A stretch of DNA of 36,568 bases from Deltaproteobacteria bacterium (lineage in GTDB: Bacteria > Desulfobacterota > Desulfobulbia > Desulfobulbales > SURF-16), in the NCBI GenBank assembly GCA_016219175.1, contig JACRCD010000049.1:1-36568 (forward strand). The letters are read 5' to 3'. Position 1 is the first letter of the stretch, and each line of letters opens with the position of its first letter. Shown piece after piece: positions 10,037 through 35,593 of this stretch. The translations under genes were made by a program, and so were the position numbers. The notes beneath the pieces are model-generated. The model was not told the DNA's origin. It did no database searches and saw only the letters and a list, made by a program, of their open reading frames with translations.

Positions 10037-10675
10037 ATGAAGATCGTGAAAAGTAAATCAGCGAAAATGTTTGCCGTCTCGGCGGCCTTTCTGGGCATGG
10101 TTTCCGCCGCTTCAGTTCAGGCCGGTTCCGTCAGTCTCGGCGGCCATATTGACTGGATCGACGTGAGCTTCCCCGTCGCCGGCCTTACCTCTGGTTCTCC
10201 TGTGTCACTTGATCTGTTTTGGGATGACGCGGCAATCAATGCCATTGGCGGGACGGATCTCGAGATCAACGGCGCGCCCAACTCCATGCTCTTTACTGTC
10301 GGTCCGATCCACTTCAGCGAGGCGGACCGCTATATTGACCTGGATGATCCTTCTTTTTCAGACCTGTCTCCCCGGGCGCATTTCACCGACGGCATTCTTG
10401 ATGGGGTACTCATGAATTTTTTCCTGGTCCCTGCTGAATTTGATGGTGTTGTTAGCGAGTGGTCGCCCATTGTTACCTGGAATTACGATGTGAATGAGGG
10501 TATTTTCCGGGGTAATAGCGGCAATTATTTTGAAATTATTGACGAAAATACCTTTACCTTCGTCGAAGGCGAATTTGACGTGGCTTCGGCCCCAGTGCCT
10601 GTTCCCGGCGCTTTCTGGCTGCTTGGTTCCGCACTCATCGGTCTTGCCGCCCGGTTGCGGGGCAGAAGAAGCTGA
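10037..10675 (+). CDS. Secreted protein with PEP-CTERM-like sorting tail
   Basis: A 212-residue exported protein. A signal peptide (about 1-30, ending VSAASVQAG) leads into a beta-rich domain of unknown function. The C-terminus has a VPVPG motif, a hydrophobic helix (AFWLLGSALIGLAARL) and a basic RGRRS end. That tripartite tail is the PEP-CTERM/VPxxP pattern processed by exosortase in exopolysaccharide-producing Gram-negatives. AAGGAG lies before the ATG. The N-terminal domain resembles that of the next gene (see findings), so the two are probably tandem duplicates. Function is unknown; no exosortase gene is seen in this window. Confidence 0.75.
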   Translation: MKIVKSKSAKMFAVSAAFLGMVSAASVQAGSVSLGGHIDWIDVSFPVAGLTSGSPVSLDLFWDDAAINAIGGTDLEINGAPNSMLFTVGPIHFSEADRYIDLDDPSFSDLSPRAHFTDGILDGVLMNFFLVPAEFDGVVSEWSPIVTWNYDVNEGIFRGNSGNYFEIIDENTFTFVEGEFDVASAPVPVPGAFWLLGSALIGLAARLRGRRS

Positions 10676-13381: not shown

Positions 13382-15508
13382 TTACGGGTTGACCACTGTC
13401 ACCTCGAGTGACGGTTCTTCAAGATATGTGTAAGTGTACTTGCCGTAATTAATGTCATAGACAACAACTTTGATCCGGTAGGCGCCGGAAATGGTGTAGT
13501 GATGATCAACGGGCTGGATCGGCCTGTTGACTATCGTTGTTTTTCTGTCGCCCCAGTAGACATAGATCTTGGCCACAGGAACGCCGGAGGTTGTTGTTTC
13601 CGGCAGCGTCACCGTGACAAGCCCGGTGGCCGGATCAACCGAAGCCCCGACCGTCGCTCCATCAGGTCCGGCAATCTCCTTGGCTGTCACCGGATTGGTC
13701 TTGTCCACTTCCATGGAGTGGTTGTTGGCGTCCCAGACGTTCCAGGTTACATTATAGGCGCCTTCAGCCGGATAGATGTGGCTGGCGTTGCAGTTGACCC
13801 GCTCCTCGCTGGTGCTGTCGCCCCAGTCAAAGGAACAGGTGAACGGAGTGCTGCACACAGCTGCCCCGCAGTCAGTCACATTGACTTGGAAATTGATTTC
13901 GTTTGACTCATCGCCTGCGGTAATGGATGGCGAGGCATGCAGATATGTATTACCCCAGCGGATCGGGGTGTTGAAGCCGAAAAACGCGTGGCAGGAGTTA
14001 GTTGAACAGGTTCCGCCGCCGGTGTCGAATTCATAAACCAGATTGAGCACGTGATCCTGGTTGTTGGCCCTGAAGGTCGGGGCGCCGATGACATCGTAGC
14101 GGCCGTTGCCGTGATTGCCGGCCGGTTCGATGGATGTTCCATCCGTGGTGGTGGTGTTATGGCAGGTGTTGCAGGAGAATCCTGCCATGATGTGGCGCTG
14201 GTGGCTGTTTGATTTTGGCTGGTCCTGGGCATAGGAGGGCGGATAGCTGTGACAGGAGTCGCAATCGGTGTTGCCGTTTGTCCAGGAGGGGGACGGCTGA
14301 GTGGCCAGCACTCCCGTGGCTATGGAGGTTCCGTCACTGTGGCAGTAAACGATACAGGTCATGGACCCCCCGGTTGTCACCGAGGTGTTGTTCGTTCCCT
14401 GATAGCTGTAGGCGGGACGCAGACTCTGGCCATCGTAACGGTTGCCGGTTGTATTTTGTCCCGCAATGTCAAATCCCAGCTGCAGTCTGTAATCGTCGAC
14501 AATCGGGGAAACCGGCATGCCGCCGGCATGGCAGGTGGTGCATGCCATGCCGTTGTCCACCACATGGGTGGCGTGGGCCCCGGCGCTGGTTGCCCCTGTC
14601 CGCTCGGGATTCCAGACCAGCCCGTCAGGTACGATATCATTGATCACGGGCGGATAGCCGTGGCAGGCGTTGCAGCTCGGCCGGAATCCCAGTTCGTGCT
14701 CGTGGCAGCTGATGCAGTTTTCCCCGTTGAAGTGGTCGGCCAGGGTGCCGTCGCTGCGCCAGTGTCTGGTCTGGGTGTGGCAGACCTGGCAGACCCCGTT
14801 TGGAGTGGGGTCCGTGGCGGCGCCGGATTCGTTATCGGCCAGTCCGGCGGGAGACCCGGCAAAGCTGACGGCTTTGCCGTCAATGGCGCTCTTGACATAC
14901 TGGCCGTAAAGGATTTTGAAATTCCTGATGGTCGAGATCTGGGTGATTTCACCCTGCACGGTGATGGCGCCCGCCGTGGCGGCCACAATCTCCGCGGAAA
15001 AATCAACGTATTTGTTCTGTTCGTTGTCCCACAGCAGGCCTTCCACCAGCAGGATCAGGCCGCGACCCGGACCGGTTTTGGAGCTCCAGGAGGTAATATC
15101 CCGCCAGTCCGCATCATGGACCGTAACGGTGTTGAGGGTGAAGGTGGAGGTTCCTCCCCCGGCACTATAACCGGTAAAGGTACCGCTGGCCAGGGGGGTG
15201 CCGCACTGGGCGGAGACATGGGGATCATGACAATCAACGCACTGTCTCGCCCAGTTGCCATACTGGCTGCTGCCGATTACCGCAGCCGAGTGGGTGGCCA
15301 CCCGCGGGGCGCTCGTTTTGGCATAATTTGCTCCGGTGTCGTTGTTGTGGCAGAATTCGCAGGCTGTTTTCGGGCCCATGTGGTTTGCGTGGCAGTCGAT
15401 ACAGTCGATGGAATTTGTTGTCCAATGTGGCGCGGTATTGGCTGATCCTATCTGCGGAACCGCTGCTATTCCCAACACCAGCAGGCTGTTTGCAATGAAT
15501 TTTTTCAT
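13382..15508 (-). CDS. Undecahaem c-type cytochrome with C-terminal PKD domains
   Basis: A 708-residue exported protein (signal peptide about 1-23). I count nine CxxCH motifs, one CxxxCH (CIVYCH) and one CxxxxCH (CSTNSCH), giving 11 predicted c-haems. Hallmarks of the CxxxxCH/CxxCH family seen in Geobacter relatives are CQVCH, RPSCNACHGYPP, AGAHATHV, CTTCHAGGMP, CDSCHSYPP and GGGTCSTNSCHA. A haem-free beta-rich insert (about 110-225) splits haems 3 and 4. The C-terminus (about 530-708) has two PKD-like domains with YVYWGDRK. AAGGAG supports ATG 15508. It follows the 740-residue cytochrome by 35 nt. Likely extracellular electron carrier; function inferred from family and location. Confidence 0.88.
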   Translation of the reverse strand: MKKFIANSLLVLGIAAVPQIGSANTAPHWTTNSIDCIDCHANHMGPKTACEFCHNNDTGANYAKTSAPRVATHSAAVIGSSQYGNWARQCVDCHDPHVSAQCGTPLASGTFTGYSAGGGTSTFTLNTVTVHDADWRDITSWSSKTGPGRGLILLVEGLLWDNEQNKYVDFSAEIVAATAGAITVQGEITQISTIRNFKILYGQYVKSAIDGKAVSFAGSPAGLADNESGAATDPTPNGVCQVCHTQTRHWRSDGTLADHFNGENCISCHEHELGFRPSCNACHGYPPVINDIVPDGLVWNPERTGATSAGAHATHVVDNGMACTTCHAGGMPVSPIVDDYRLQLGFDIAGQNTTGNRYDGQSLRPAYSYQGTNNTSVTTGGSMTCIVYCHSDGTSIATGVLATQPSPSWTNGNTDCDSCHSYPPSYAQDQPKSNSHQRHIMAGFSCNTCHNTTTTDGTSIEPAGNHGNGRYDVIGAPTFRANNQDHVLNLVYEFDTGGGTCSTNSCHAFFGFNTPIRWGNTYLHASPSITAGDESNEINFQVNVTDCGAAVCSTPFTCSFDWGDSTSEERVNCNASHIYPAEGAYNVTWNVWDANNHSMEVDKTNPVTAKEIAGPDGATVGASVDPATGLVTVTLPETTTSGVPVAKIYVYWGDRKTTIVNRPIQPVDHHYTISGAYRIKVVVYDINYGKYTYTYLEEPSLEVTVVNP

Positions 15509-15543
15509 ATTTTTCTCCTTGTTCAGATCGAGGTTTTTTGCCG

Positions 15544-17766
15544 TTAATTAAAACTCGGAACAACGACCTGGATGTTGGGACTGAGCGTTATATAACTTGA
15601 ACCGCCATTGTCTCGCACGTAATACTGGACATAACGCGTGCCTGCCGTGGTGTAGGTGTGACTGAAGGTCTGTCCGGACGGTGAGCCGCTCAGATTGAGG
15701 GGCAGCTCGCTGTCGGTTACGCCATCACGCCAGTTGATTCTGGCAAATCCTGATCCCGAATGGCCGCAGGCATCGAAATCAGAGTCAATGGACAGGTCGG
15801 TGATGGTCACGGTGTAGGCGGTTTTTTGGGCCGGATTAGCAGGATTGCCGTATACCGGGGTGTAGACAATACCTGTCCTGTTGACGTTGGGAACCGGGGC
15901 CGCATTGGCCGCGCCCGCCGAGGAAGAGACAGGGGTGGTTTTGGTGCCGGCGGACAGGGTATGCATCTTGGCGTCCCGGACCGTCCAGGTGACTGTGTAG
16001 TTGGTGCTCATGGCGGGATAGACATGGGTGTGGCTGCCCAGTTGCCCTTCATAATCCCAGCTGCCGTCGCTTTCCCAGTCGATTGAGTAATAATAGGGCG
16101 GCACACCATTGCTGGATATCACGTTAATGGCAAAGTTAACTGAAGCACACAGGCTGCCCGGAGACCAGGAAACATTGGCGCTTATGGCGTTGAATCCCCA
16201 GGGCCGGTCCGCGCTGGTGCCCATGTTGGCATGACAGGTGATACCGGAGCAGGTGCCGCCCCCCGGGTCATAGGTGTAAGTGAAGTTGACATTGCTCGGA
16301 AGGCTGCCCACCACATAAACGGTGGCCGTTGGGTCTGGAACAACGTCGTACTGTCTGTTGACATGTTTGCTCCGGTCAGTGATGGTGGAGCCGTTTTGCG
16401 TTGTGCCGTAATGACAGATGTTGCAGGTGTAGCCGAAACTTGCGTGCAGCCCATGCTTGTTGGCCTTGGGCTCGTCAGGGGCATAGGCCGGCGGATAGCT
16501 GTGGCATGAGGAGCAGGAGGTTGAGCCGTCCCAGGCGGGCGAGCTCTGATGCGGACCAGGGAAGGCGGCCGGATCAAAGACGCTGGTGGCGACCCCCGTG
16601 CCGTCGCTGTGGCAATAGATGTTTTCACAGGTGGTGGCTGGGCCGGCTGTGGATATGGTGGTGCCGTTGGTTCCGTGGACACTATACGATGTATTCAGGG
16701 TTTGGGCATTGTAAACCGAACCCGCGCCGCTGAAGCCAAGGATATTGAAACCCATCTGGATTCTGTAATCGTCATTAACCGGGGTAATCGGCATGCCATC
16801 GGCGTGACACTTATAACAATCGATTTTATAATCAGTAACATGGAGGGCATGGGCCCCGGCAGTGGTTGATCCGGTTGGCGCGGGAGATACCACAAGGCCA
16901 TCAACTCCCTGCGGCGTATTAACCTCCGGAGGATAGCCGTGGCAGGCGCTACAGCTTGGCCGCCACCCGTCATTACGCGTGCTGCCGTCATGGGCGTGAC
17001 AGTCGGTGCAGACCGGCCCCTGATCGTGACCTGAAAAGCAGGGGGACTGGCAGTGCTTGGTGTGGTGGTGACATACCTGGCACACACCATCATACGGGGG
17101 GGCGATATTGTGGACATAGTCGCTTGGCCGCTGGTTGTCAAGGAATGTGACACCTTGCGTAGCTACCGGAATGCCATACTGGCCGTCCGTACGTTCGGCA
17201 ACGTCATCATGAATCATAAAGATATTGTTGTCACCATGAGGGTCATGACAGTCCCAGCAGAACGCGCCGCCATCCTGCGGTTCGTCATGTTCGTATCCGG
17301 CGTGGTGGCTCTTTTTTTTCAGGACTGAATTGACCAGGGCAAAGGAAGCGCCAGCCCCATCCGGGTCAACGCCAGGACTGTCTGCGTCGTGGCAGGCCCA
17401 GCAGGTGGAATTCTGGCCAAGGGGGCCTGCGGCCGTGGCATTGCGCAATCTGAAGGGGTTGTCCGGCTCGCCGTGCCTTGTGTCATAATCATGGCAGTAA
17501 GCGCAATCCAAGGCGATTCCGGGCTGGCCATGTCCGTTGCTTTGCCACTCATTGTTGTCTATCCGGGCGGCAGTGAAGTTCATCTGGTAATCGTTGACAT
17601 CTCCGGCGCCCAAGTGGCAGTCGGCGCAGGTCCCTTGCGGTTTGCCCGGTGTCACGCAGCCGGTTGTGCCGTGGCAGTCAAAGCAGCCGGCGGAAGCGAT
17701 ACCCGGCGCGCTCATTATGGCAAGACCTGTCATAACAGCTGTCTTGGCAATATTGATTATCTTCAC
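15544..17766 (-). CDS. 13-haem c-type cytochrome with C-terminal PKD-like domains
   Basis: A 740-residue exported protein (signal peptide about 1-26, ending GIASAG). It holds eleven CxxCH motifs plus two CxxxxCH motifs (CENIYCH, CSGITCH). The first five haems are packed in the N-terminal ~180 residues. A core shared with the 708- and 812-residue proteins then runs from CQVCHHHTKH through CSACHGYPP, AGAHALHV, CYKCHADGMP, CSSCHSYPP to GGGTCSGITCHA. About 210 C-terminal residues are haem-free PKD-like beta domains. The start is GTG 17766 with a strong GGGAGGGGAGG upstream; no ATG fits the signal peptide. It is first in a three-gene minus operon. Probable surface electron-transfer protein. Confidence 0.88.
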   Translation of the reverse strand: MKIINIAKTAVMTGLAIMSAPGIASAGCFDCHGTTGCVTPGKPQGTCADCHLGAGDVNDYQMNFTAARIDNNEWQSNGHGQPGIALDCAYCHDYDTRHGEPDNPFRLRNATAAGPLGQNSTCWACHDADSPGVDPDGAGASFALVNSVLKKKSHHAGYEHDEPQDGGAFCWDCHDPHGDNNIFMIHDDVAERTDGQYGIPVATQGVTFLDNQRPSDYVHNIAPPYDGVCQVCHHHTKHCQSPCFSGHDQGPVCTDCHAHDGSTRNDGWRPSCSACHGYPPEVNTPQGVDGLVVSPAPTGSTTAGAHALHVTDYKIDCYKCHADGMPITPVNDDYRIQMGFNILGFSGAGSVYNAQTLNTSYSVHGTNGTTISTAGPATTCENIYCHSDGTGVATSVFDPAAFPGPHQSSPAWDGSTSCSSCHSYPPAYAPDEPKANKHGLHASFGYTCNICHYGTTQNGSTITDRSKHVNRQYDVVPDPTATVYVVGSLPSNVNFTYTYDPGGGTCSGITCHANMGTSADRPWGFNAISANVSWSPGSLCASVNFAINVISSNGVPPYYYSIDWESDGSWDYEGQLGSHTHVYPAMSTNYTVTWTVRDAKMHTLSAGTKTTPVSSSAGAANAAPVPNVNRTGIVYTPVYGNPANPAQKTAYTVTITDLSIDSDFDACGHSGSGFARINWRDGVTDSELPLNLSGSPSGQTFSHTYTTAGTRYVQYYVRDNGGSSYITLSPNIQVVVPSFN

Positions 17767-18274: not shown

Positions 18275-19987
18275 CTAAGGGTAGGTGGACGAGGCGCCAC
18301 CGTCATGGCTCTTGCCGTGGCATACCAGCAGACAGCGGCCGGATCGGGTTCCCAGATCAAAAAAGAGCGGTGTAGCATTGGGAGGGAACGGTGAGACAAT
18401 GGCAACGTCAAAATTAATGAGATGAGTATGGTCGCCCAGGCCGTCATTTTTCACGCCATGGGGGTCATGGCAGGCCGAGCAGGGCGTTCGTTGGTCAGCC
18501 ACATGCCGCCGGTGGCCGCTGGCATTGTACAAGCCCTGATCGTCCAGCAGTTTGGTGCGGTCATGGCAGCGATAACAGAGGGCATAGGAGGCCTCGCTTT
18601 CCGGCAGGTTGTCCATGGTGTCGTAACGTTGCCTGAGGATGGGCCGGTAAATGGAGCCGTGAGGGCCGTTCGGACCCGCGCCGCCGATGGCCGGGCTCTC
18701 GTTGCTGTCGTGACAGCTGGTGCAGGCGATCATGCTGGTGGCGGTCATCTCAGGTTCATAGACGCTTGGCAGGGTCGGCACGTCCGGGTTGCGGCCGATG
18801 GCGATGACCGGATGGTACGAGGGATTGGTCGTGGTAAATTCCAGCATGGTATTGTTCTCGTTGCTCCAGCGGGTGATCAGCGGAATGGAGTTGCTTGAGT
18901 CGCCATGACATTTGAAGCAGAGTTCGTATTCGTAGACAAGGGGGGCAACCACGGCGCCGCTCTGGGCCTTGCCGGCTACCAGGGCCAGAGAACCCGAGGC
19001 GTTGGGAACGATGGACTGGTCGCTGTATGCCGCATGGGGGTTATGGCAGTCGACGCATTCAACGTGGTCCTGGAGAAACATCAGGTCTTCCGCCGGATCA
19101 TGGGCGTTGCCGGTGACATCGATAGTGGTCGCTGCTACGGGATGATGTGATATCTTGCTGAACTGGGCTTTGATGTCAAGGCTGGCCACCGTGCCGTCAT
19201 GGCAGGGATAGCAGTTTTTTTCCTCTTCCAGCTGATGCAGCAGACGTTTCGGTCCCCCTGCCCCGTGGGGCCGGTGACAGCTGGCGCAGGCGTGCTCGGC
19301 CACGGTTTTTGTATTTCCCTGGGAGCCGCCGTTCCATGTTTTGGTGGAGGTGGCGTGGCTCGACGTGCTCCAGCCGGCAACATTCACATGGCAGGTGGTG
19401 CAGAGGGCGGAATACTCATTACCCATGACGAGAAATTTCCCGAAGGTGTCGTCGTGCGGATCATGACAGGTGGTGCAGTGGATGTTGCCGTCCCCGTAAC
19501 TCCGCAGCCCCTGCGGGATTGCCGGGGCCAGTTCGGGGTTGGGCAGGGCCTCGTAGTAGTTGAAGGATACGGGATGATCATTGGATATGTCGGTGTCAAG
19601 ATTGCTTGTTCTGGCGGTAAGTTCCATGCTCATCTGGATGCCTTCCACCGGTCGCAGCACATCGCCCAGGGCAATGGTGCCGTCATGGCAGCTCAGGCAG
19701 AGGCGGGTGGGACCGGAGGGTTGCCGCGGAGTGGCGCTTAAGGTGCTGCTTTGGTACAGGGTGTAATTGGTCGGCTGCAGATTCTTATTCCATAAAGGCG
19801 TGCCTGGCGCGGCATTATGAGGCGTATGGCAGAAAATGCAGATTCTGTCCTCGGTTAAAGCCCGTATCTCACCCGGGCCGGTTATGGACAGGTTATGCTT
19901 TGAGTCGACAATACTCATGCCCGCCATGGCCTGTCCCGCCACAAACTGGCCCAGGATAAGGATGGCAAGGAGTGTGGAATGGTTCAT
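18275..19987 (-). CDS. Dodecahaem c-type cytochrome built of three OmcE-like tetrahaem modules
   Basis: A 570-residue exported protein (signal peptide about 1-22, ending GQAMAG). It has eleven CxxCH motifs and a final CxxxCH (CLLVCH), so 12 predicted haems. They fall in three groups of four. Each group follows the order CxxCHxPH or equivalent, CxxCHDGT/DRT, a free His or HHP, CxxCH(D/N)PH, CxxCH. The first group (about 30-215) closely resembles the tetrahaem protein at 26315: SKHNLS, CIFCHTPH, PLWN, LCLSCHDGT, HPVSFNY, CTTCHDPH. Its ATG overlaps the stop of the NHL gene (ATGA), so translation is coupled. Last gene of the porin operon. Likely the cytochrome that passes electrons through or beyond the barrel; inference. 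Confidence 0.88.
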   Translation of the reverse strand: MNHSTLLAILILGQFVAGQAMAGMSIVDSKHNLSITGPGEIRALTEDRICIFCHTPHNAAPGTPLWNKNLQPTNYTLYQSSTLSATPRQPSGPTRLCLSCHDGTIALGDVLRPVEGIQMSMELTARTSNLDTDISNDHPVSFNYYEALPNPELAPAIPQGLRSYGDGNIHCTTCHDPHDDTFGKFLVMGNEYSALCTTCHVNVAGWSTSSHATSTKTWNGGSQGNTKTVAEHACASCHRPHGAGGPKRLLHQLEEEKNCYPCHDGTVASLDIKAQFSKISHHPVAATTIDVTGNAHDPAEDLMFLQDHVECVDCHNPHAAYSDQSIVPNASGSLALVAGKAQSGAVVAPLVYEYELCFKCHGDSSNSIPLITRWSNENNTMLEFTTTNPSYHPVIAIGRNPDVPTLPSVYEPEMTATSMIACTSCHDSNESPAIGGAGPNGPHGSIYRPILRQRYDTMDNLPESEASYALCYRCHDRTKLLDDQGLYNASGHRRHVADQRTPCSACHDPHGVKNDGLGDHTHLINFDVAIVSPFPPNATPLFFDLGTRSGRCLLVCHGKSHDGGASSTYP

Positions 19988-21033
19988 TTTCCGGTTCCCC
20001 CATTGCGTTGTTTGTCAACCTCCACCGTCCCGGTCAACAGCTCGAATATCTGCACGCGTTTATTATAGGTGTCGCACACGTAAAGGTGGTTCCCCGTATC
20101 GACAAAAAGGCCGGAAGGCATCCAGAACTGGCCGGCCTCGCCGCCCTGTCCGCCGATGGCCAGCAGATAGGTCCCTGTGCCGTCAAACATCTGTACGTTG
20201 TCAAAAAGCGTTTCCGCCACATAGATAATGCCGTTTGCGTCGGCCCCGATCCCCTTGGGGCTGGCAAAGTCGCCCGAGCCGTTGCCGTGATGGCCGAAGG
20301 TGCTCCAGACTCCTTTTTCCGGATGAAAAATCTGAGCCCGGAAGTTCATGGAATCGGTGACATAAATATTTCCCTCCCTGTCCGAGGCCAGGTGGGTGGG
20401 GAAGTTAAGCGCACCCGGCTGTTCCCCCCTCTCGCCCAGGCGGGTGATGAACTCGCCCAGCCGGCTGAAAACAAGAATCTGATGACGCAGGGTTTCCGCC
20501 ACATACAGCCGGTTGTCATAGCGGTTGAAGGTTATGCCCGTGGGCCGCAGCAGGGGCAGGCCGCCGGCCTGGTCGATGGTGCTGATGAACTCGCCTTTGG
20601 CGTCATATATCAGTATTTTGTTGAGCTGTGAATCGGTCACGTAGAGATTGCCGGCATCATCGAAAGCGACGCCGACAGGGGTGCTGATTCGCTCCTTGCC
20701 GGCCAGGACAAGCAGCTTATAATTCTTGTTGCGGGGAGCAAAGAGATGGATGCCTTGCCTGTCCTGATCGGCAATGGCCATCTGTTCTTCCGGACCCGTT
20801 GCCAGGGCCACCGGCTTTAAAATTCTGCCGCTCTGGCTCTTGCCGGCGATGATGGAGATCAGTGATCTGCTGGTCTGTTCAAACGCATGCATTTCCCCGG
20901 CATAGCGCACCTTGCAGTCCCCTTCGGGCGGCCAGCAGATGTCAGCCGTTTTCAGGGTCAGGGGCTGCCACTCCGCCGGCGCGCAGCCGCTGAAGAGAAG
21001 GGTTGTTAGCAGGAGGAAAAAAAGTCTTTTCAT
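19984..21033 (-). CDS. NHL-repeat beta-propeller lipoprotein (second copy)
   Basis: A 349-residue predicted lipoprotein. The first 17 residues end in the lipobox LFSGC with C17 as acylation site. The rest is a six-bladed NHL propeller with repeated G(V/I)AFDDAGNLYVTDS, GITFNRYDNRLYVAET, HLASDREGNIYVTDS, GIGADANGIIYVAET and GLFVDTGNHLYVCDT. I start at ATG 21033, 4 nt after the isomerase stop, because it gives a normal lipoprotein signal; the longer form adds 12 unlike residues. It is a distant paralogue of the first gene of the operon. NHL propellers are protein-protein scaffolds; here probably an outer-membrane or periplasmic component of the conduit. Confidence 0.9.
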   Translation of the reverse strand: MKRLFFLLLTTLLFSGCAPAEWQPLTLKTADICWPPEGDCKVRYAGEMHAFEQTSRSLISIIAGKSQSGRILKPVALATGPEEQMAIADQDRQGIHLFAPRNKNYKLLVLAGKERISTPVGVAFDDAGNLYVTDSQLNKILIYDAKGEFISTIDQAGGLPLLRPTGITFNRYDNRLYVAETLRHQILVFSRLGEFITRLGERGEQPGALNFPTHLASDREGNIYVTDSMNFRAQIFHPEKGVWSTFGHHGNGSGDFASPKGIGADANGIIYVAETLFDNVQMFDGTGTYLLAIGGQGGEAGQFWMPSGLFVDTGNHLYVCDTYNKRVQIFELLTGTVEVDKQRNGGTGK

Positions 21034-21037
21034 GAAA

Positions 21038-22132
21038 TCACTTCTTTTCCTCAACCCTGAGAAGATCATGCATGATTTTGATATCCGCCTCGGCCATCAG
21101 CTTTTTGCGCCAGTCGGCCAGCATCTGGCGGCGCAGGTTTGATTTGAGCTGTTTGGCGATGGATGCCTTAGCCTCTTTTTCAGGGGTTTCCCTGGCCGGC
21201 TGGTAAAATTCGAATTTGACCAGGTGCAGGGTGCCGTCAATGACCAGGGGGTCGGACAGTGCGCCAGCCTGCATCTTTTTTGCAGCCTCATAGAGCCCCG
21301 GTCTGTTTTCCGGGGAGACATTCAACTGACTTTCCACCACAAACCCTTCCGCTGGGATCTCTGCCGGATTACTGTAGTATTCATCAATGATTTTCTGACG
21401 GATGGCAGCGACTTTTTCTTGCGCGGAAGGATCCTTGGGGTCAAGGAAAAAAATGATGTCCGAGACGGTGACCTTTTCCGGGGAGGTGAACTGGGTCTTG
21501 TTCTCCACATATGTCCGGTCAATCTCCTTGTCCGTCACCTTGACCTTGCCGTAAACTTCCTGTTCGATGGCCTGTTTGACCACAAGGTAGCGGGTGATCT
21601 CCTTTCTTATCTCGTCAGGTGTTTTTTTCTGCCCGGCCAGGGATTTCGCAAAGGCTTCCTCGCCTCCCGCCTGTTCCATCATGGCGTTGACCTGGACCTC
21701 CACAACAGCCGGATCGGCCTTGAGGCCGAGGGTAATCCCCTTCTGATAGGCCAGTTCCTCCAGGGCGAGCTGTTCCAGTGCGTCATACCGGATGCGCTGG
21801 GACATCTCCATGGTCATGTTGCCGCCTCCGCCGTAGCCGCCCCGCATGATCAGGTCCGCGATACTCTTCATCAATTCGCCCATGGTGAATTCCCTGCCGT
21901 TGACATTGGCGACGACCATGCTGGTGTTGCCCGCATGGCTCGGTACGTCAATATCCTTCATGCCGCCGCCGGGACTTGCCGCACCTCCATGGGGAGCTCC
22001 GTTGCCCGCCCCCGCGCCGGTTCCGCCCGATCCCATGCCCTTGAAGGCGGAAGAGTGGCCTGCGTGGCCTAGGAAGAGTCCGGCGGTTAAAGCCGCGGTA
22101 ATGATTATTTTCATGCTGGTTATCCGTTTCAT
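21038..22132 (-). CDS. SurA/PpiC-like periplasmic peptidyl-prolyl isomerase
   Basis: A 364-residue exported protein. The signal peptide (about 1-30) is followed by a Gly-rich linker (about 32-60), a SurA-type helical chaperone domain (about 70-200, with VVANVNGREFTMGEL) and a parvulin-like domain (about 215-320). The parvulin core is degenerate but keeps the order VSDIIFF, AAIRQKI, EGFVVESQLNVSPE, ALSDPLVIDGTLHLVKF. ATG 22132 has AAGGA at good distance; a second ATG at 22114 is less well placed. It lies between the porin and the second NHL gene. It probably assists folding of the barrel or cytochromes in the periplasm. Isomerase activity itself is uncertain. Confidence 0.85.
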   Translation of the reverse strand: MKRITSMKIIITAALTAGLFLGHAGHSSAFKGMGSGGTGAGAGNGAPHGGAASPGGGMKDIDVPSHAGNTSMVVANVNGREFTMGELMKSIADLIMRGGYGGGGNMTMEMSQRIRYDALEQLALEELAYQKGITLGLKADPAVVEVQVNAMMEQAGGEEAFAKSLAGQKKTPDEIRKEITRYLVVKQAIEQEVYGKVKVTDKEIDRTYVENKTQFTSPEKVTVSDIIFFLDPKDPSAQEKVAAIRQKIIDEYYSNPAEIPAEGFVVESQLNVSPENRPGLYEAAKKMQAGALSDPLVIDGTLHLVKFEFYQPARETPEKEAKASIAKQLKSNLRRQMLADWRKKLMAEADIKIMHDLLRVEEKK

Positions 22133-22349: not shown

Positions 22350-22363
22350 AGCCTAAAACAGCT
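22332..22363. repeat. Degenerate heptamer tract (right arm, inverted)
   Basis: Contains TTTAGCCTTCCCCCTACAG and CCTAAAACAGC, the inverse of the GGCTnnn tract at 22165. It overlaps the last codons of the porin gene, so the repeat reaches into coding sequence. Confidence 0.5.
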
Positions 22364-24434
22364 CCCGTTTCACATTAAACCTGACCATGGTGTACGATCT
22401 GGTTGTGTTGCTGTCGGCGATGCTTGAGTCGGAGGTTGTGTAGGAGGCCGACAGATCAAGGTCAATTTTGCCCACGTGCCAGACAAAGGTGGAGAAAAGG
22501 GAAAGATTGGTCGACTCGCCGACCCCTTGGTATAAGGTATAGTTGCTGCCCAGCGAGGCGTTCATGTTTTTTTCCGGCAGGACGGTCTGGAGCTGGGCCT
22601 GGGCGGTATAAAACTGTTCCGACAGATTCTCTTCCGGAGCGTCCTTGAGGAGTTCATACTGGGTTGTCTGGGCGTCCTCGAAGGAGCAGGTGAGAAAACC
22701 CGAAGTATAGGTGTTGATTTCCCTGGTATAGGAGAGGTAGGTGGTGAGCCGGTCTTCATCCGTGGTGTTTGATCTGATCCAGCTTTGAGTGACGTCGCCG
22801 GCAAAGGGGAATTTGCTGAAGCTGACACCGAAGGTGTGTATTCTGGAAGCGGCCGGCTCGCCGGGATAATTCCCTTCCAGAACAGACTGGTCAGTCTGCA
22901 TGTAGGAATAGTGAGGGTTAATCAGATTGTTATACAGGGGGAGCTGCAATGAGCTGCCCCAGGTTTTGGCTTGCAGCAGGTAATCCGCGGGAAGAAAAGC
23001 GTAATCCGCCTGGTACGTGTATTCCCAGATATTGCCGTCCGGATCTTCCAGCTCTTCATAGGGCAGACTGGTGATGGTGATGCGGTAGGAGTTGGGAAAA
23101 GGGGTGACGATGTAATTGATGCCTTCGATGAGCAGCACCTGCCGGTTATTGTTGTTGCTGTCAATAATCCGCACTTGCAGGGTGGTCAGGTCAATGGTCT
23201 GGTAGTTGATGGTGAAAAAATTAAGCCCCGTGGTAATGGGGTGGGTCTCAAAGAGCGTGGACGGGGCGCCTTTATTATCCGTGAAGGAGAGTCCGTCCCA
23301 GACCCCGGCCAGAACGCTGCCCCAGGGAATTTTTTTGCTGTAATCGCAGGTAAGCCGGTAATTTTGCTGGTCCATGGTGCCGCCCACGGCATCGGTGGTA
23401 CTGTACCCGGCGCCGAATGAAGAGGAGAGACTGGAGAACAGGCGGTGATGAAGATAGAAGTTATAGCGTTCACCCTTGCTGAATGACTCACTGATGCGGG
23501 TTTCCCGCTGATGATCCGAGCTTCTGTCCGTATTGTGATAGGAAAGGGATGTATCAAAATTGCGGGGCAGCTCAACCGCCAGTTCGCTGGCAAACTCCTC
23601 CATGGTCAGCAGGGAGGTGTTGATGACCTCCGGGTTGAATTTGTTGTCTTCGTCCTGTTCGTCGTAGCTCCAGCGGTTTGTGAAGCGAATTTTTTCGCCG
23701 AAGGCCTTGACCATGCCGAGGCTGTAAAGATCACGTGTTGTATTGTTCAGTCCGCCTTGGTTGGAGCTGGTGGTGTGATTGTATGCCCCTTGGCCGTTAA
23801 AGCCGGTGATATAGTAATGGAGGTTGTACAGTAATGTCTCAAAATCAGAGGGTGCGATGGCGTCGGTTTCCCGGTTGGTCATGGTGAGAGACGTTGACCA
23901 GGGGCGCGCGTCATATCGTGCCAGAGCGCCTTGTTCATAAATGATGACGGCGCTGCTGTCTCCCGGGTTGCCGGCGGTCATGGGCGTGGCCCGCAGGAAA
24001 TAGAGTTCGGCATTGTAGGGATGGCTGGGCAGAATCTTGAATTCCTGCTTGAAATTGTGGGCCCAGCCCGAAAAGCTCTCGTCCCTGCCGCCGCTGTTTC
24101 TCATTTCCTCCTGCTTGAGCCCCAGTCCCAGGGTGGTGGCCAGGCTGACAAAAAGCGGGCTGTAAATATAGCCCAGCCCCTTGACGGAGACGCCTTCCTG
24201 TAGAAGGTAATCCTGCCGTGTGCTGGATCTGCGGGCCTCGACCTCATCTTTTTCATACAGTCCGCCTATGCCCATCTCGGATGAAAAATCCACATATCTC
24301 GGGACGAACTGTTTCATGGCAGCCCGGGCGTACCCCTGGTGAAAAAGAAGCAGAACGAAAAAAAACGCGGCCGCGACCCATGCCGGAGGCCACAGGGTTC
24401 CCGCCTCCATCCTCATGGTGCGAGGCTTCAACAT
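22353..24434 (-). CDS. Outer-membrane beta-barrel (porin-like) protein of the cytochrome conduit
   Basis: A 693-residue exported protein. A long signal sequence (hydrophobic core WVAAAFFFVLLLF, about 20-35) is followed by many alternating amphipathic strands rich in Tyr, Ser and Thr, the pattern of a large beta-barrel. The chain ends in MVRFNVKRELF, a C-terminal Phe beta-signal for the BAM machinery. A stretch around 410-480 (QVRIIDSNNNN..., then ITITSLPYEELEDPDGNIWEY) looks like an inserted soluble domain. I start at ATG 24434, which has an AGGGA site and lies 17 nt after the NHL stop; a longer form has no signal peptide at its N-terminus. In this context it is best read as the sheath for a cytochrome. 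No haem motif is present in the barrel itself. Confidence 0.85.
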   Translation of the reverse strand: MLKPRTMRMEAGTLWPPAWVAAAFFFVLLLFHQGYARAAMKQFVPRYVDFSSEMGIGGLYEKDEVEARRSSTRQDYLLQEGVSVKGLGYIYSPLFVSLATTLGLGLKQEEMRNSGGRDESFSGWAHNFKQEFKILPSHPYNAELYFLRATPMTAGNPGDSSAVIIYEQGALARYDARPWSTSLTMTNRETDAIAPSDFETLLYNLHYYITGFNGQGAYNHTTSSNQGGLNNTTRDLYSLGMVKAFGEKIRFTNRWSYDEQDEDNKFNPEVINTSLLTMEEFASELAVELPRNFDTSLSYHNTDRSSDHQRETRISESFSKGERYNFYLHHRLFSSLSSSFGAGYSTTDAVGGTMDQQNYRLTCDYSKKIPWGSVLAGVWDGLSFTDNKGAPSTLFETHPITTGLNFFTINYQTIDLTTLQVRIIDSNNNNRQVLLIEGINYIVTPFPNSYRITITSLPYEELEDPDGNIWEYTYQADYAFLPADYLLQAKTWGSSLQLPLYNNLINPHYSYMQTDQSVLEGNYPGEPAASRIHTFGVSFSKFPFAGDVTQSWIRSNTTDEDRLTTYLSYTREINTYTSGFLTCSFEDAQTTQYELLKDAPEENLSEQFYTAQAQLQTVLPEKNMNASLGSNYTLYQGVGESTNLSLFSTFVWHVGKIDLDLSASYTTSDSSIADSNTTRSYTMVRFNVKRELF

Positions 24435-24451
24435 GGGGTGTTCCCTGATCT

Positions 24452-25612
24452 CTATTTTTGTTCTTGCTGCCACTGTTTGAGTTTTTCTTCCGCCTTTTGG
24501 GACATATCTTCCTCGCTTGGGTAGGTTCTGCCCTTTTCCTTGCCAAAGGCATAGACATTGACCAGCCGCTGGCCGAACTGGCTGGTGACGATGACCAGGG
24601 ACTCGATGTCAAAGTTCGGGTCCGCGTATTCCTTGAAATACTCGATGTTGTCGTAATCAATGAAAACATCGGCGGGCAGGAAGAGTTTCCCAGGCCCGGT
24701 GCCGGAACCGCCGAAAAAGAGCAGCAGCTGGCCGTCGTTGCGGAAGATCTGTACATTTTCAAAGGCCGCGTCCACGGCAAAAACCCTGCCCTGCCGGTCC
24801 GTGGCCACGCCCCTGGGCCGGGCAAAATGGCCCAGGTTGGCTCCCGGTCTGCCGATGGTGCCTCGCTCATGACCGTCCCGGTCATAGATGACAACCTGGA
24901 AACGGCCTGAGTCGCTGATGTAGAGCAGCTCATCCGGACCCATACTGATGCCGGTGGGCAACCCCAGGTTTTCTTCCGGTTTGTTGTTGCGGCCGAAGGC
25001 CGTCACCTTCTCGGCGGTTTCAATGTCAAAGACCTTGATTTCCCGTTCCTTGGAGTCCACCACATAGAGCAAGCCCTGGTAGGCCACCGAGTCCACCGGT
25101 TTCCACTGGCCGGGCAACCCGAAACCTTTGACAAAGAAGTCATTTTTATCATACATAAGGACCTCGCCCCGGACCACGTCGGAGACAAATTTGTTGCCGT
25201 CCGCGTCAAGGGCGATGTTCAGCGGCTGGACAACCTTGCCCAGGCCTTTGGCCCCTTCCATTTCATGGAATTTTTTATTTTTCAGGTCAAAAACCACCAC
25301 GGTGGCCTGGGAGTCACACACGTACAGTTTGCCGTCGGTCAGGGCCGCTCCGTATGGTTTGACAAGGTGGTAGCTCTGATTTTCATCGCCGGTCAGAAAG
25401 GAGTCAAAGGCGTCGCCGGCGGGCACGATGTCGTCGGAGGTGGTGAAGCTCCGCAGAAACTGCAGTCTGGGGGGAGCGGGAGGATCGGGAAAGAAAACGT
25501 CCTGTTCTTTTTCTTCCGGTTTGGGGGTCGTCACGCAGCCGCTTAGGAATGTTGTGCCGATGAAGAGAGAGAGCAGAAGAGCGTTGCAGAGAAAAATTTT
25601 TGCCTTGTTCAT
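24452..25612 (-). CDS. NHL-repeat beta-propeller lipoprotein (first gene of conduit operon)
   Basis: A 386-residue predicted lipoprotein. The signal sequence ends in the lipobox LSGC (C26). NHL blades follow: GAALTDGKLYVCDS, NIALDADGNKFVSDV, VAYQGLLYVVDS, GISMGPDELLYISDS, GVATDRQGRVFAVDA, DVFIDYDNIEYFKEY. The N-terminus begins at ATG 25612, which has AGGTG upstream; an upstream in-frame start at 25690 lies in the repeat-rich leader and gives no signal peptide. It precedes the porin gene by 17 nt and is paralogous to the NHL protein at 19984-21033. A -24/-12 promoter lies about 200 nt upstream. Probable scaffold of the outer-membrane complex. Confidence 0.9.
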   Translation of the reverse strand: MNKAKIFLCNALLLSLFIGTTFLSGCVTTPKPEEKEQDVFFPDPPAPPRLQFLRSFTTSDDIVPAGDAFDSFLTGDENQSYHLVKPYGAALTDGKLYVCDSQATVVVFDLKNKKFHEMEGAKGLGKVVQPLNIALDADGNKFVSDVVRGEVLMYDKNDFFVKGFGLPGQWKPVDSVAYQGLLYVVDSKEREIKVFDIETAEKVTAFGRNNKPEENLGLPTGISMGPDELLYISDSGRFQVVIYDRDGHERGTIGRPGANLGHFARPRGVATDRQGRVFAVDAAFENVQIFRNDGQLLLFFGGSGTGPGKLFLPADVFIDYDNIEYFKEYADPNFDIESLVIVTSQFGQRLVNVYAFGKEKGRTYPSEEDMSQKAEEKLKQWQQEQK

Positions 25613-25647
25613 CAAACGCACCTTTTTTTGTAACGACTCAGTTGAGG

Positions 25648-25670
25648 CGGAAGGCTGTAGGCTAAAGGCA
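25648..25670. repeat. Heptamer tract in conduit-operon leader (left arm)
   Basis: GGCGGAAGGCTGTAGGCTAA-type degenerate heptamers. The inverse occurs at 25724-25753 (CTTCAGCCTGCAGACT), so the transcribed leader of the NHL gene can fold into a long hairpin. Confidence 0.5.
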
Positions 25671-25723
25671 CAGGGGCGCGACTTAATCATATGTCACCTG
25701 TCACTGTCCCGCCTGTCTCTCAA

Positions 25724-26188: not shown

Positions 26189-26301
26189 ACTTGTAACGCG
26201 CTCATGGAATTTGGGGAAATTCATGGGAAGCTGTTCTATCAGAGAACAGCTAAAAAGCAAAAAAAAGGCGACAGAGGTCAAAACGTGACGCTGTCCCAAG
26301 C

Positions 26302-26307
26302 AGGAGG
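26302..26307 (+). promoter_or_regulatory. Ribosome binding site that selects the OmcE-like start
   Basis: AGGAGG lies 7 nt before ATG 26315 but only 1 nt before ATG 26309. The later ATG is therefore the start, and the longer frame back to 26204 is not translated. Confidence 0.75.
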
Positions 26308-26314
26308 AATGAAA

Positions 26315-27133
26315 ATGAAAAAAAGTCTTCTTTTAGCAGCCGCATTCGGCGTAATCGCAGCTGGTACCGCTCTGGCCCAGAACTCCACCACCGGTTCCTT
26401 TAACGCGGATGCCGGCGCCGGTATCGTCGGCTCCAAGCATGACCTGAGCATTGCCACCGGTATCGGAGCGCTTTACGGACAGACAGATCAACTGGACCGT
26501 ATCTGTATTTACTGCCATGCTCCTCACCATGCCATCAACGAGGCCGATGCCGCGGGGATCAAGTATCTGCCCCTGTGGAACCATGGTGTAACCACCCAGT
26601 TTTACAACACCTATCAGAGCGATTTCGGTGATGGCCCCGCCGCTTCCGGTCTGAACGGTGTTGGTACAGTAAGCAATATCAACCAGTTTGCCGATCGTCA
26701 CCTGTTCAACGGTGACGCCACCCTGGGTGAGCCGGGTTCCGTTTCCCGTCTCTGTCTCTCCTGCCATGACGGCACGGTTGCCATCAACGAGTATGGTTTT
26801 GATCCGGGCCGCGCTGAGTCCCGTGGCGCCGCCACCCATTTCATCGCTGATCAGTTCAAGATCGGCGGCGGAGGCAATCTGACCAACCATCATCCCATCG
26901 GTTTCAGCTACCTCGACGTAGCGTTGCATGATGATGAGATCGCCGCTCCCGATACCGTTATCAACGGCCTTGCCACCAAAGAGCAGACCACCATCCGCTC
27001 CTTGCTTTATGCGGGCGAGATGATGGAGTGTGTTACCTGTCATGACGTTCATAATACTAAGAACGAGGGTGAGACATTCCTGTGGAAGTCTGACCGGAAC
27101 AGTGGTTTCTGTCTGACCTGTCACATCAAATAA
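26315..27133 (+). CDS. OmcE-like tetrahaem c-type cytochrome (candidate extracellular filament subunit)
   Basis: A 272-residue exported cytochrome. The signal peptide (1-21, ending GTALA) would leave an N-terminal Gln. Four CxxCH motifs start at residues 64 (CIYCH), 147 (CLSCH), 239 (CVTCH) and 266 (CLTCH); the last one ends two residues before the C-terminus. The IVGSKHDLS opening, CxxCHAPHH, PLWN, CLSCHDGTVA, NHHP and CVTCHDVH pattern is that of OmcE, the Geobacter tetrahaem protein whose monomers stack into extracellular nanowires. Enough extra His residues are present for bis-His ligation. It is monocistronic, with its own -24/-12 promoter and a UUCG terminator, and divergent from the porin operon. 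Family call is from motif order; filament formation is inference. Confidence 0.88.
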   Translation: MKKSLLLAAAFGVIAAGTALAQNSTTGSFNADAGAGIVGSKHDLSIATGIGALYGQTDQLDRICIYCHAPHHAINEADAAGIKYLPLWNHGVTTQFYNTYQSDFGDGPAASGLNGVGTVSNINQFADRHLFNGDATLGEPGSVSRLCLSCHDGTVAINEYGFDPGRAESRGAATHFIADQFKIGGGGNLTNHHPIGFSYLDVALHDDEIAAPDTVINGLATKEQTTIRSLLYAGEMMECVTCHDVHNTKNEGETFLWKSDRNSGFCLTCHIK

Positions 27134-27165
27134 GTAAAGATAGCACCCGTTTTTCGTATAACGCA

Positions 27166-27197
27166 AGAAAAGGAGCCTTCGGGCTCCTTTTCTTTTT
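27166..27197 (+). terminator. UUCG intrinsic terminator of the OmcE-like gene
   Basis: Stem AGAAAAGGAGCC (27166-27177) / GGCTCCTTTTCT (27182-27193) closed by a TTCG tetraloop and followed by a T run. Very stable, so the downstream glycosyltransferase gene probably has its own promoter. Confidence 0.93.
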
Positions 27198-27292: not shown

Positions 27293-29446
27293 ATGAGTTC
27301 TCTAAAACCCCGTAAAAAAAACAAACAGCCAGGCAAAACATCACCAAACCTCGCTCTTGCCGCGGCCCTCAGGCTGCACCAGGCCGGCAATCTGGAGGAG
27401 GCAGCCGCCCTGTATCGCGCCATGGCCGCAAAGGACCCTGAAAATCCGGGGGTTAACCATCTGCTTGGCGTGCTCGAATCCCAGCAGGGCAGGAAAGAGG
27501 TGGCTGAAAGTTTACTCAGGCGGGCCATCACGGCCGAGCCTCGCTTGGCGGAAGCCCACAACAACCTCGGCGTTGTCCTTTGTGATCTGGGCAGGTTTGC
27601 TGAAGCGATTGCCTCGTACCGGAGCGCCCTGGCCATCAGGCCTGACTATGTCGAGGCCCTGCAGAATCTGGGCAATGTTTGGCGCGATCTGGGCGAAACC
27701 GATGAGGCCATCGGCTGCTACCGCAAGGTGCTTGAGCTGGCCCCTGATTTCGTCGAGGCCTTGAATAATCTCGGCGCCGCATTAAACGCCCGGTTGCGGT
27801 TTGCCGAGGCCCTGGGGTGGTTGCAAAAGGCGGTTTCCCTCAATCCCGGCCTGGCGGAAGCCCGGTACAACCTGGGCAAGACCCTGGCCGGACTTGAAAA
27901 ACCGGAGGAGGCGGTAGCTGCCTACCGCCGGGCGCTCTCCATCAGGCCGGAGTATGTCGATGTCCACATCAGTCTCGGCTCGGCCTTGGACATGCTGAAC
28001 CGGATCAGCGAGGCCGCGGCCTGCTACCGGAAGGCGCTGATCCTGGATGCCGGTCACGCCGGGGCCTGGAATAATCTGGGCAATGTTCTCAAGGACCAGG
28101 GCAATATCGAGGAGGCCATTGACTGTTACCGCCGCTCTCTCGCCCTTGCTCCCGACAGCCACTCTACCCATTCCAATCTGCTGCTGGCCTTAAATTATCT
28201 TCCCGCGCTTTCCAAGGAGGAGCTTTTTGGCCAGTCAAAACGCTGGGACGGGCAGCATGCCGCGCCGGCGTATTCTTCCAGCCATGGGAACAGCCCTGAA
28301 AATGACCGGAGGCTGAAGGTCGGCTATGTCTCTCCTGATTTCCGCAATCATCCGGTGGCCTGTTTTTTTGAAACGCTCTTGCGAGGCCACAACAGGGAGA
28401 ACGTTGAAGTCTTCTGTTACTCCGACGTGGTGAAGCCGGACGCTGTCACCTCTCATCTCGAAGCCCGGTCTGATCACTGGTGTTCGATAAAGGGGTGGTC
28501 CGGCGAGCAGGTGGCCGGGCGGATCCGGAGCGACGGGATCGATATCCTGATTGATCTGGCGGGGCACACCGCTGGTAACCGCCTGCCGGTTTTTGCGGCA
28601 AAACCGGCGCCGGTGCAGGTGAGCTGGCTGGGTTATCCCAACACGACCGGGTTGCGCGCCATGGACTACCGGATAACGGACGCGGTTGCCGATCCGGTTG
28701 GCGAGGCGGACCCGCGGCACAGTGAAACCCTGGCTCGCCTGCCGCACATCTTTCTCTGTTACCGGGGTGATCCTCGGGCCCCTGCCGTGACGGCGCCGCC
28801 TTTTTCCCTGAGCGGCGGTATAACCTTCGGCAGTTTCAATAATCTGAGCAAAACCAACCCGCGGGTGATTGCGGTATGGTCGCGCATTCTCCATGCGGTG
28901 GAGGGATCCCGGCTGTTTCTGAAATGCCGGCAGCTTCTTGACCCCGGGACCCGGGAAATAGTCCTCCGCCTGTTTGCGGAACACGGCATCGGCCGTGACC
29001 GGCTTGAGTTTTGCGGCTGGATTCCCGCGGCGCAGAGCCATCTGGAAACCTATGGCCGGCTTGATATCGGGCTTGACCCCTTTCCATATAACGGCACGAC
29101 CACAACCTGCGAGGCTTTGTGGATGGGGGTGCCGGTGGTCTGTTTGCGCGGCGACCGGCATGCCGCCCGGGTGGGGGCAAGCATCCTGACCTGTATCGAT
29201 ATGGAGGAGCTGATTGCCGAAACAGAGGCGGAGTATGTTGACAGGGTTGTTGCCCTGGCCGGAGACCAGGAGAGGCTTGCCCTTTACCGGTCGACCCTGC
29301 GCCGGCGCCTGGCTGTTTCGCCATTGACTGACAGCGCGGGATTTGCCGCCAGGATGGAAAATGCCTACCGGGAAATGTGGCGCGCGTGGTGCGCGCGGAA
29401 ATTGGCCCCTCTTTTGCAAAAAAAATCTTCCCTCTTAACAACATAA
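27293..29446 (+). CDS. TPR-containing GT41 (OGT/SPINDLY-type) glycosyltransferase
   Basis: A 717-residue soluble protein without a signal peptide. About nine tetratricopeptide repeats (about 20-310; LAEAHNNLGVVLCDLGRFAE and similar) lead into a GT41 catalytic region (about 335-700). Its marks are HPVACFFE with H353, IDLAGHT, PVQVSWLGYPNTTG, FGSFNNLSKTNP with K520, RLEFCGW, and DPFPYNGTTTTCEALWMGVP. The family transfers GlcNAc or another sugar from a nucleotide donor to Ser/Thr (or Asn) of proteins chosen by the TPRs. It is directly downstream of the OmcE-like gene and 3 nt ahead of a TPR-sulfotransferase, so modification of surface cytochromes is possible but unproven. Confidence 0.92.
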   Translation: MSSLKPRKKNKQPGKTSPNLALAAALRLHQAGNLEEAAALYRAMAAKDPENPGVNHLLGVLESQQGRKEVAESLLRRAITAEPRLAEAHNNLGVVLCDLGRFAEAIASYRSALAIRPDYVEALQNLGNVWRDLGETDEAIGCYRKVLELAPDFVEALNNLGAALNARLRFAEALGWLQKAVSLNPGLAEARYNLGKTLAGLEKPEEAVAAYRRALSIRPEYVDVHISLGSALDMLNRISEAAACYRKALILDAGHAGAWNNLGNVLKDQGNIEEAIDCYRRSLALAPDSHSTHSNLLLALNYLPALSKEELFGQSKRWDGQHAAPAYSSSHGNSPENDRRLKVGYVSPDFRNHPVACFFETLLRGHNRENVEVFCYSDVVKPDAVTSHLEARSDHWCSIKGWSGEQVAGRIRSDGIDILIDLAGHTAGNRLPVFAAKPAPVQVSWLGYPNTTGLRAMDYRITDAVADPVGEADPRHSETLARLPHIFLCYRGDPRAPAVTAPPFSLSGGITFGSFNNLSKTNPRVIAVWSRILHAVEGSRLFLKCRQLLDPGTREIVLRLFAEHGIGRDRLEFCGWIPAAQSHLETYGRLDIGLDPFPYNGTTTTCEALWMGVPVVCLRGDRHAARVGASILTCIDMEELIAETEAEYVDRVVALAGDQERLALYRSTLRRRLAVSPLTDSAGFAARMENAYREMWRAWCARKLAPLLQKKSSLLTT

Positions 29447-29449
29447 GCC

Positions 29450-35563: not shown

Positions 35564-35593
35564 TTCATCTGACCTCAAAGGGGGGAAAAGAAA

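Follow-up and report, generated by a model that had tools for sequence, protein, structure and literature searches.

What is the role of a cytochrome with twelve haem-binding motifs whose gene shares a run with that of a predicted outer-membrane porin and lies 6.2 kb from that of a tetrahaem cytochrome resembling the nanowire subunit OmcE? The question is raised by contig JACRCD010000049.1 of a Desulfobulbales genome (assembly GCA_016219175.1), whose positions 1 to 36,568 form the stretch of DNA analysed here, hereafter called the window. An original prediction, made from the sequence of the window, had read this protein as three tandem OmcE-like modules and proposed that it forms a covalent adaptor between conduit and wire. 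We find that its first module is an OmcE homologue, and we tentatively read the whole protein as a wire-to-porin adaptor, composed of an OmcE-like head on a run resembling MtrA, the decahaem cytochrome held within the MtrAB porin.

All the haem-binding motifs listed in the prediction are present. Inspection of the sequence located eleven CXXCH motifs, at residues 50, 97, 171, 196, 234, 259, 311, 357, 422, 471 and 503, and a twelfth motif of the CXXXCH type, CLLVCH, at residue 552. The corresponding 24 cysteines and 12 proximal histidines are conserved without exception across an alignment of 81 sequences, namely the window protein (P0001) and those of 80 loci. These loci are the best 80 of 569 confirmed relatives retrieved from named genomes with two peptide patterns, both within module 1, so that the conservation of module 1 and its linkage to OmcE-like genes may be overstated. 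The motifs were expected to follow the same spacing logic in the three modules; instead, the spacings are 47/74/25, 25/52/46 and 49/32/49 in modules 1, 2 and 3, respectively, and 83/92/27 in the stand-alone tetrahaem cytochrome. Module similarity was then evaluated against a null in which the haem motifs were kept and the remaining residues shuffled, with 300 shuffles per comparison. The observed similarity was reached by 0 shuffles for modules 1 and 2, which are thus related beyond chance, by 38 for modules 2 and 3, which is weak, and by 103 for modules 1 and 3, i.e. at chance level. The match to the window tetrahaem cytochrome was reached by 0, 3 and 8 shuffles for modules 1, 2 and 3, respectively. 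From the spacings together with the shuffle scores and the profile scores given below, we deduced that the threefold repeat holds for one module and perhaps for two.

The conserved extra histidines recur more regularly than the motif spacing: H31/57/138/178, H211/241/282/318 and H392/443/492 and 495/510, the grouping into threes being our own. His31 is found in 80 of the 81 sequences, the remaining one being gapped at that position. Further conserved non-proximal histidines are located at residues 57, 138, 178, 211, 241, 282, 318, 443, 492, 495 and 510, to which are added 296, 308, 392 and 561 (77, 78, 80 and 79 sequences, respectively) and the less conserved 522 (55 sequences). With 16 strong candidates for 12 distal positions, the 12-haem protein could therefore donate one histidine and retain a full set. 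In the tetrahaem family, aligned from the window protein and 45 of 65 others, four non-proximal histidines are near-universal (64, 61, 66 and 66 of 66 sequences) and a fifth is found in 54 of 66, for four haems.

By sequence, profile and fold, module 1 is homologous to OmcE. It matches OmcE (7TFS) with phmmer at E 2.1e-26 and, by profile-profile comparison with hhalign, the neighbouring OmcE-like family at E 3.7e-62 with a score of 381, the best control family scoring 135. In structural comparisons with VIA-align, OmcE superposes on residues 30-201 of the model of the 12-haem protein with Z 12.1 and a root-mean-square deviation (rmsd) of 2.9 over 168 amino acids (aa). The stand-alone tetrahaem cytochrome was found where it had been announced; module 1 matches it with 32% identity (E 3.6e-26), and it matches OmcE itself with phmmer (7TFS, E 7.9e-16). 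In a tree of module 1 copies and stand-alone tetrahaem cytochromes (74 rows, every second sequence taken), the module 1 copies form one near-exclusive group, requiring 2 changes and with one tetrahaem row inside; 56% of the bootstrap trees need just one change. This near-exclusive group fits, without proving it, one old fusion or split.

At E 1, the only solved structures matched by sequence by the 12-haem and tetrahaem proteins are 7TFS and 9YUQ. Chain N of the latter, a 16-chain PDB entry, is named 'putative multiheme cytochrome c' and is a second solved OmcE-like chain, matched by module 1 at E 6e-24 and by the stand-alone tetrahaem cytochrome at E 4e-15. In addition, the genome of the window (G000) contains a second, more distant OmcE-like match at C60:8486-8857 on the minus strand (281 aa frame, 71.8 bits), within a region dense in doubled-CXXCH matches.

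The two other modules behave differently. Judged by its sequence, module 3 is not OmcE-like, with a profile-profile score of 44.5 to the OmcE-like family against 118 to the best control. Module 2 is ambiguous, scoring 102 to the OmcE-like family and 105 and 94 to two control families of multihaem proteins. The controls are doubled-CXXCH-type proteins encoded in these loci, and a score of up to 142 between one of them and the OmcE-like family suggests that they may be distantly related. The OmcE-like profile covers module 2 in three collinear in-register pieces and meets module 3 at haems 9-10 as though these were OmcE haems 3-4, all these matches being weak (7 to 17 bits); past module 2, the protein thus seems to repeat in units of two haems. 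The three-OmcE reading was consequently dropped for module 3, whose similarity to module 1 is moreover at chance level, and is not upheld for module 2. One third of the predicted tandem stands, that is module 1, and these scores do not sustain the notion of a fused trimer of wire subunits. The comparison with other multihaem proteins, named beforehand as one that could overturn the repeat, found module 3 no closer to OmcE than to them and left module 2 ambiguous.

The AlphaFold2 model of the 12-haem protein was built from P0001 and 71 relatives, the alignment (A2) comprising P0001 and 71 of the 80 loci. Its mean predicted local distance difference test (pLDDT) is 88.3 and its predicted template modelling score (pTM) 0.85. 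Haems 4 and 8 are located within helices (191-199 and 353-361), and haem 12 within beta strands 541-546, 549-556 and 559-562. Using Foldseek, OmcE was the sole match at E 0.001 or better. Using VIA-align on 59 chains, MtrA (6r2q_A, 265) superposes on residues 91-525 with Z 10.0, rmsd 4.9 and 30% identity over 237 aa; the next match is OcwA with Z 5.1, and all others have Z of 3.3 or less. No further family stood out in this structural comparison, which does not thereby exclude one. The superposed range comprises haem motifs 2-11, and from the identity we infer a one-to-one pairing with the ten haems of MtrA, the known points being the ends of the range. All 72 scanned sequences, cut to residues 203-570, matched the DmsE/MtrA-type family TIGR03508 at E 0.01 or better, one member thus cut scoring 51.2 bits for a cut-off of 192.2.

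The neighbouring porin was aligned with 57 of 61 others and its AlphaFold2 model was built from 58 sequences (pLDDT 87.7, pTM 0.74). A hand count from the element list gave 28 long strands, with a small beta domain inserted at about residues 403-497. Its best PDB match, by Foldseek and by VIA-align, is MtrB, from the same PDB entry as MtrA. By sequence, the porin has no match among solved structures at E 1.

These elements can be organised into a proposed mechanism. In OmcE, the ligand shared between subunits is its N-terminal histidine. The 12-haem protein would be the haem wire of a porin-cytochrome conduit across the outer membrane, with its N-terminal 180 residues as a built-in OmcE-type nanowire subunit and residues ~91-525 enclosed by the porin. 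Module 1 would use its free N-terminal face, which carries the near-invariant His31, to dock on the open end of an OmcE-like filament. The last haem of that filament would otherwise lack a distal ligand, and the head would provide it, as an OmcE subunit does for its neighbour. Electrons would then cross gap-free between the periplasm and the filament, and the isomerase and propellers encoded nearby would aid assembly or export. The adaptor is thus kept from the original prediction, with 'three OmcE modules' replaced by 'one OmcE head on an MtrA-like run', a reading in which our confidence is just short of even. It is supported through another anatomy than that first proposed, by an OmcE-like head continuous with an MtrA-superposing stretch, a large barrel next door and a strong linkage to an OmcE-like gene; the docking and the outward end are inferred. 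For OmcS nanowires, secretion and anchoring in the outer membrane are regarded as speculative by a 2025 review (PMC12307469), and the paper on the OmcZ structure states in a figure legend that possible tip proteins are left out of consideration (PMC9473688). Such questions would become testable with a conserved protein that joins a wire-subunit domain to a membrane-wire-like run. The more general proposal, that OmcE-type nanowires have in the 12-haem family their missing base in the outer membrane, combining in one polypeptide an MtrA-like wire through a 28-strand porin with the first filament subunit, appears rather doubtful. If true, the filament would be plugged into the cell by an unbroken chain of haems, across about a dozen phyla.

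This range of phyla is that named in the titles of the best 80 relatives. It suggests that OmcE-type wire genes occur well beyond Geobacter; one Geobacteraceae genome (L087) has the cluster. The loci come mostly from metagenome-assembled genomes, so that binning errors are possible. Among 58 related genomes, 40 contain matches of some length to the 12-haem protein, and 16 full- or near-full-length relatives were found beside the window's own, with 45-81% identity (14 of them were aligned with P0001 in alignment A1). Gene labels occurring anywhere in a source were counted over 82 sources, comprising the window, a fragment of it (L001) and the 80 loci, many of which are cut short. The 12-haem gene is found in 82 of them, NHL proteins in 80, the porin in 70, a four-motif tetrahaem cytochrome in 60, a five-motif cytochrome in 44 and the isomerase in 14. 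For loci with 8.5 kb on both sides, a porin and an NHL protein are found in 38 of 38, and a tetrahaem-type gene (3-6 motifs, similar to the window tetrahaem cytochrome or to the 12-haem protein) in 37 of 38. Upstream of the 12-haem gene, the first labelled gene encodes an NHL protein in 76 of 81 cases (80 loci and the window).

The linkage was also examined by co-occurrence in 257 genomes of the class, using thresholds of 330 bits for the 12-haem protein (alignment A4, comprising the window piece and 71 of 77 loci, 3 of the 80 having been dropped before) and 140 bits for the tetrahaem cytochrome (alignment A5, outside the 12-haem frame). A hand tally gave 30 genomes with both genes, 4 with the 12-haem gene only (G038, G043, G052 and G220), 4 with the tetrahaem gene only (G002, G132, G167 and G171) and 219 with neither. 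The resulting Fisher p of 1.6e-30 is inflated by shared ancestry, relatedness being uncorrected. Weaker matches were left uncounted: 12-haem matches in G231, G236 and G237, and tetrahaem matches of 51-85 bits, including those in G038, G208 and G219.

Several observations weigh against the adaptor. With its rmsd of 4.9 and 237 residues out of a range of 435, the MtrA match may reflect common haem stacking. The superposition on MtrA runs in the same direction. The N-terminus of MtrA lies on the periplasmic side, so that, if the analogy holds, the OmcE-like head would be periplasmic. The whole 12-haem protein reaches 66.6 bits with TIGR03508, below the cut-off given above. As a match of the porin, MtrB barely beats other large barrels (Z 15.4 versus 15.1 for the PapC usher with VIA-align), its template modelling (TM) score with Foldseek is 0.40 for an rmsd of 17.5, and MtrB_PioB is absent from the Pfam matches at E 0.01 of the 58 porins scanned. 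Module 1 shows no co-evolution with the tetrahaem cytochrome beyond that of the other modules: over 55 loci its distance correlation is 0.352, and modules 2 and 3 give 0.429 and 0.372, respectively. The sole segment of at least 3 residues under a pLDDT of 50 in the 12-haem model, 53-64, is located beside haem 1, and this low-confidence loop may have any cause. Finally, omcE of G. sulfurreducens is predicted to be monocistronic, gsu0615-0617 forming a separate unit (PMC1829397); ppcA is GSU0612 in this species (PMC2700814).

Alternative roles were weighed in the light of the genes surrounding the porin. A neighbouring cytochrome might fill the porin, with the 12-haem protein on the outside, either capping the conduit like MtrC or forming the base from which the filament grows; we consider this unlikely. 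It is favoured, at the expense of the adaptor, by the gene order: 7 of the 70 sources with a porin have no labelled gene immediately ahead of it, and in 54 of the other 63 that position is occupied by a cytochrome gene on the same strand. This cytochrome is a five-motif one in 39 cases, i.e. 39 of the 70 sources with a porin (among L022-L098), and the 15 others, read by hand, have 3-19 motifs. OcwA, an outer cell-wall cytochrome, being the third structural match and the wire-subunit pattern being kept in module 1 also argue for a position at the surface. The strong match is, however, MtrA and not MtrC, and no lipobox could be seen by eye in the 12-haem protein. Moreover, the gene before the porin encodes an NHL propeller, not a cytochrome, in 8 of the 63 sources, window included, where the 12-haem protein is therefore the obvious conduit candidate; an opposite-strand cytochrome is found there in 1 of the 63. 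The five-motif cytochrome is absent from the window cluster.

It is improbable that the porin is an usher-like secretion pore assisted by the isomerase and propellers, the 12-haem protein exiting first and ending at the distal tip. In favour of this role, the porin is matched almost as well by the ushers PapC and FimD (Z 15.1, 14.4 and 13.2), the isomerase gene directly follows that of the porin in 8 of the 70 sources with a porin, window included, and an eight-gene block, GSU2500-GSU2493, has been linked to the maturation and secretion of OmcS nanowires (PMC12977616). Yet the isomerase is unseen in most loci with the profile used, and a run superposing on a membrane-crossing decahaem cytochrome exceeds the needs of a tip. 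An MtrA-like insertion in which the OmcE-like head takes electrons from periplasmic carriers, with no direct contact with the outer wire, agrees with the same-direction superposition and the periplasmic N-terminus of MtrA but is very improbable, as it leaves unexplained both the OmcE-type histidine and motif pattern kept in the head and the presence of a stand-alone OmcE-like gene in 30 of the 34 genomes that have the 12-haem gene.

The features on which the wire-to-porin adaptor is based, and the genes around them, are described in Table 1.

Table 1. Position of the 12-haem cytochrome gene, its modules and its neighbours in the window
Feature	Position	Strand	Basis
12-haem c-type cytochrome, 570 aa	18275..19987	-	Open reading frame (ORF) list, motif count
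Module 1, residues 24-202, haems 1-4, OmcE homologue	19382..19918	-	phmmer, hhalign, VIA-align
Module 2, residues 203-366, haems 5-8, divergent doubled-CXXCH tetrahaem module	18890..19381	-	Shuffles, profile scores
Module 3, residues 367-570, haems 9-12, haem 12 CXXXCH in predicted beta strands	18278..18889	-	
Residues 91-525, range superposing on decahaem MtrA, haem motifs 2-11	18413..19717	-	VIA-align
NHL beta-propeller protein, lipobox-like LSGC by eye	24452..25690	-	PF01436
Outer-membrane porin, predicted 28-strand barrel	22353..24473	-	AlphaFold2 model, structure match
SurA/PpiC-type peptidyl-prolyl isomerase	21038..22132	-	PF13145, PF13624
Second NHL beta-propeller protein, FSGC lipobox-like by eye	19984..21069	-	PF01436
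Cytochrome downstream of 12-haem gene, 11 CXXCH + 2 CX3-4CH, weak PKD-like C-terminus	15544..17766	-	
Cytochrome downstream of 12-haem gene, 9 CXXCH + 2 CX3-4CH, PKD domain	13382..15508	-	
Stand-alone OmcE-like tetrahaem cytochrome, presumed wire subunit	26204..27133	+	phmmer to 7TFS

The 12-haem gene is the fifth of a minus-strand run ordered NHL propeller, porin, isomerase, NHL propeller and 12-haem cytochrome. As judged from the listed ORF starts, adjacent ORFs of this run overlap, with the exception of the porin/isomerase junction, and those of the second NHL protein and the 12-haem cytochrome share 4 nucleotides. By eye, the N-terminus of the 12-haem protein is signal-peptide-like. The PKD domain scores above the Pfam cut-off in one of the two larger multihaem cytochromes encoded downstream. 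The stand-alone tetrahaem gene probably starts near 26309, as judged by eye, and a terminator-like site with a 13-bp stem lies beyond its end at 27165-27194; a promoter scan returned 11 sites for 9.1 expected.

Directly after the tetrahaem gene, two TPR-rich proteins are encoded on the plus strand (27293..31522), one O-GlcNAc-transferase-like and one sulfotransferase-like by eye. Because OmcE is said to be glycosylated (PMC9473688), modification of the wire by these proteins is conceivable. Further along the same strand, a cytochrome with 9 CXXCH, 2 CX3-4CH and a weak PKD match (32867..35305) resembles in its make-up the pair at 13382-17766, and another multihaem cytochrome begins at 35573..36568, with five CXXCH before the contig end, where it is cut by the end of the window. 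On the other side, 10037..10675 (plus strand) encodes a secreted protein whose C-terminal tail we take to be PEP-CTERM-like.

Compared with known systems, module 1 is similar to OmcE (7TFS) in its sequence, its four haem motifs and its fold. The 12-haem protein differs from it by eight additional haems and by its 570 aa, OmcE being a single four-haem subunit of ~200 aa, and modules 2 and 3 are no clear OmcE copies. A haem ligand is described as shared between subunits in OmcE and OmcS (PMC9473688). With regard to MtrA (6r2q chain A), the similarity lies in the superposition of the ten-motif range and in the neighbouring porin being best matched by MtrB. The 12 haems over 570 aa, the OmcE-like head and the score under the DmsE/MtrA cut-off are differences, as is the partner, since the porins beside the 12-haem gene do not match the MtrB_PioB family.

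Three gene clusters were compared by description. The OetABI conduit of syntrophic sulfate reducers is reported to associate a porin and multihaem cytochromes, with wire-like cytochromes nearby (PMC10553843). The GSU2500-GSU2493 block likewise contains cytochromes beside a wire subunit gene, whereas OmcS is a hexahaem cytochrome whose sequence does not resemble that of OmcE (PMC9473688). The undecahaem electron transfer (Uet) cluster, described for Tenderiales and six Gallionella genomes, comprises UetJ (11 and 12 motifs, doubled CXXCH), the tetrahaem UetA, the isomerase UetB, the porin UetC, the trihaems UetDEG and the NHL proteins UetHI (PMC10734462). UetJ is also reported with a porin in a Leptothrix group (PMC13386937), and an undecahaem protein is cited for Ca. 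Dechloromonas occultata (PMC13264449). 'OmcE' is missing from the main text of PMC10734462 and of the Tenderia metatranscriptome paper (PMC5371394), and no OmcE domain in UetJ was noticed among the titles and abstract openings listed by the literature searches. The window shares with the Uet cluster a doubled-CXXCH cytochrome with 11-12 motifs, a tetrahaem cytochrome, a porin, an isomerase and NHL proteins. It differs in lacking a UetDEG-type trihaem, none of the window ORFs of at least 80 aa having exactly three CXXCH, and we therefore call the cluster 'Uet-like' and not 'Uet'; in two relatives (L065 and L099), three-motif cytochromes are found before the porin. The 12-haem family is thus probably not new, its gene content resembling by description that of the predicted Uet cluster.

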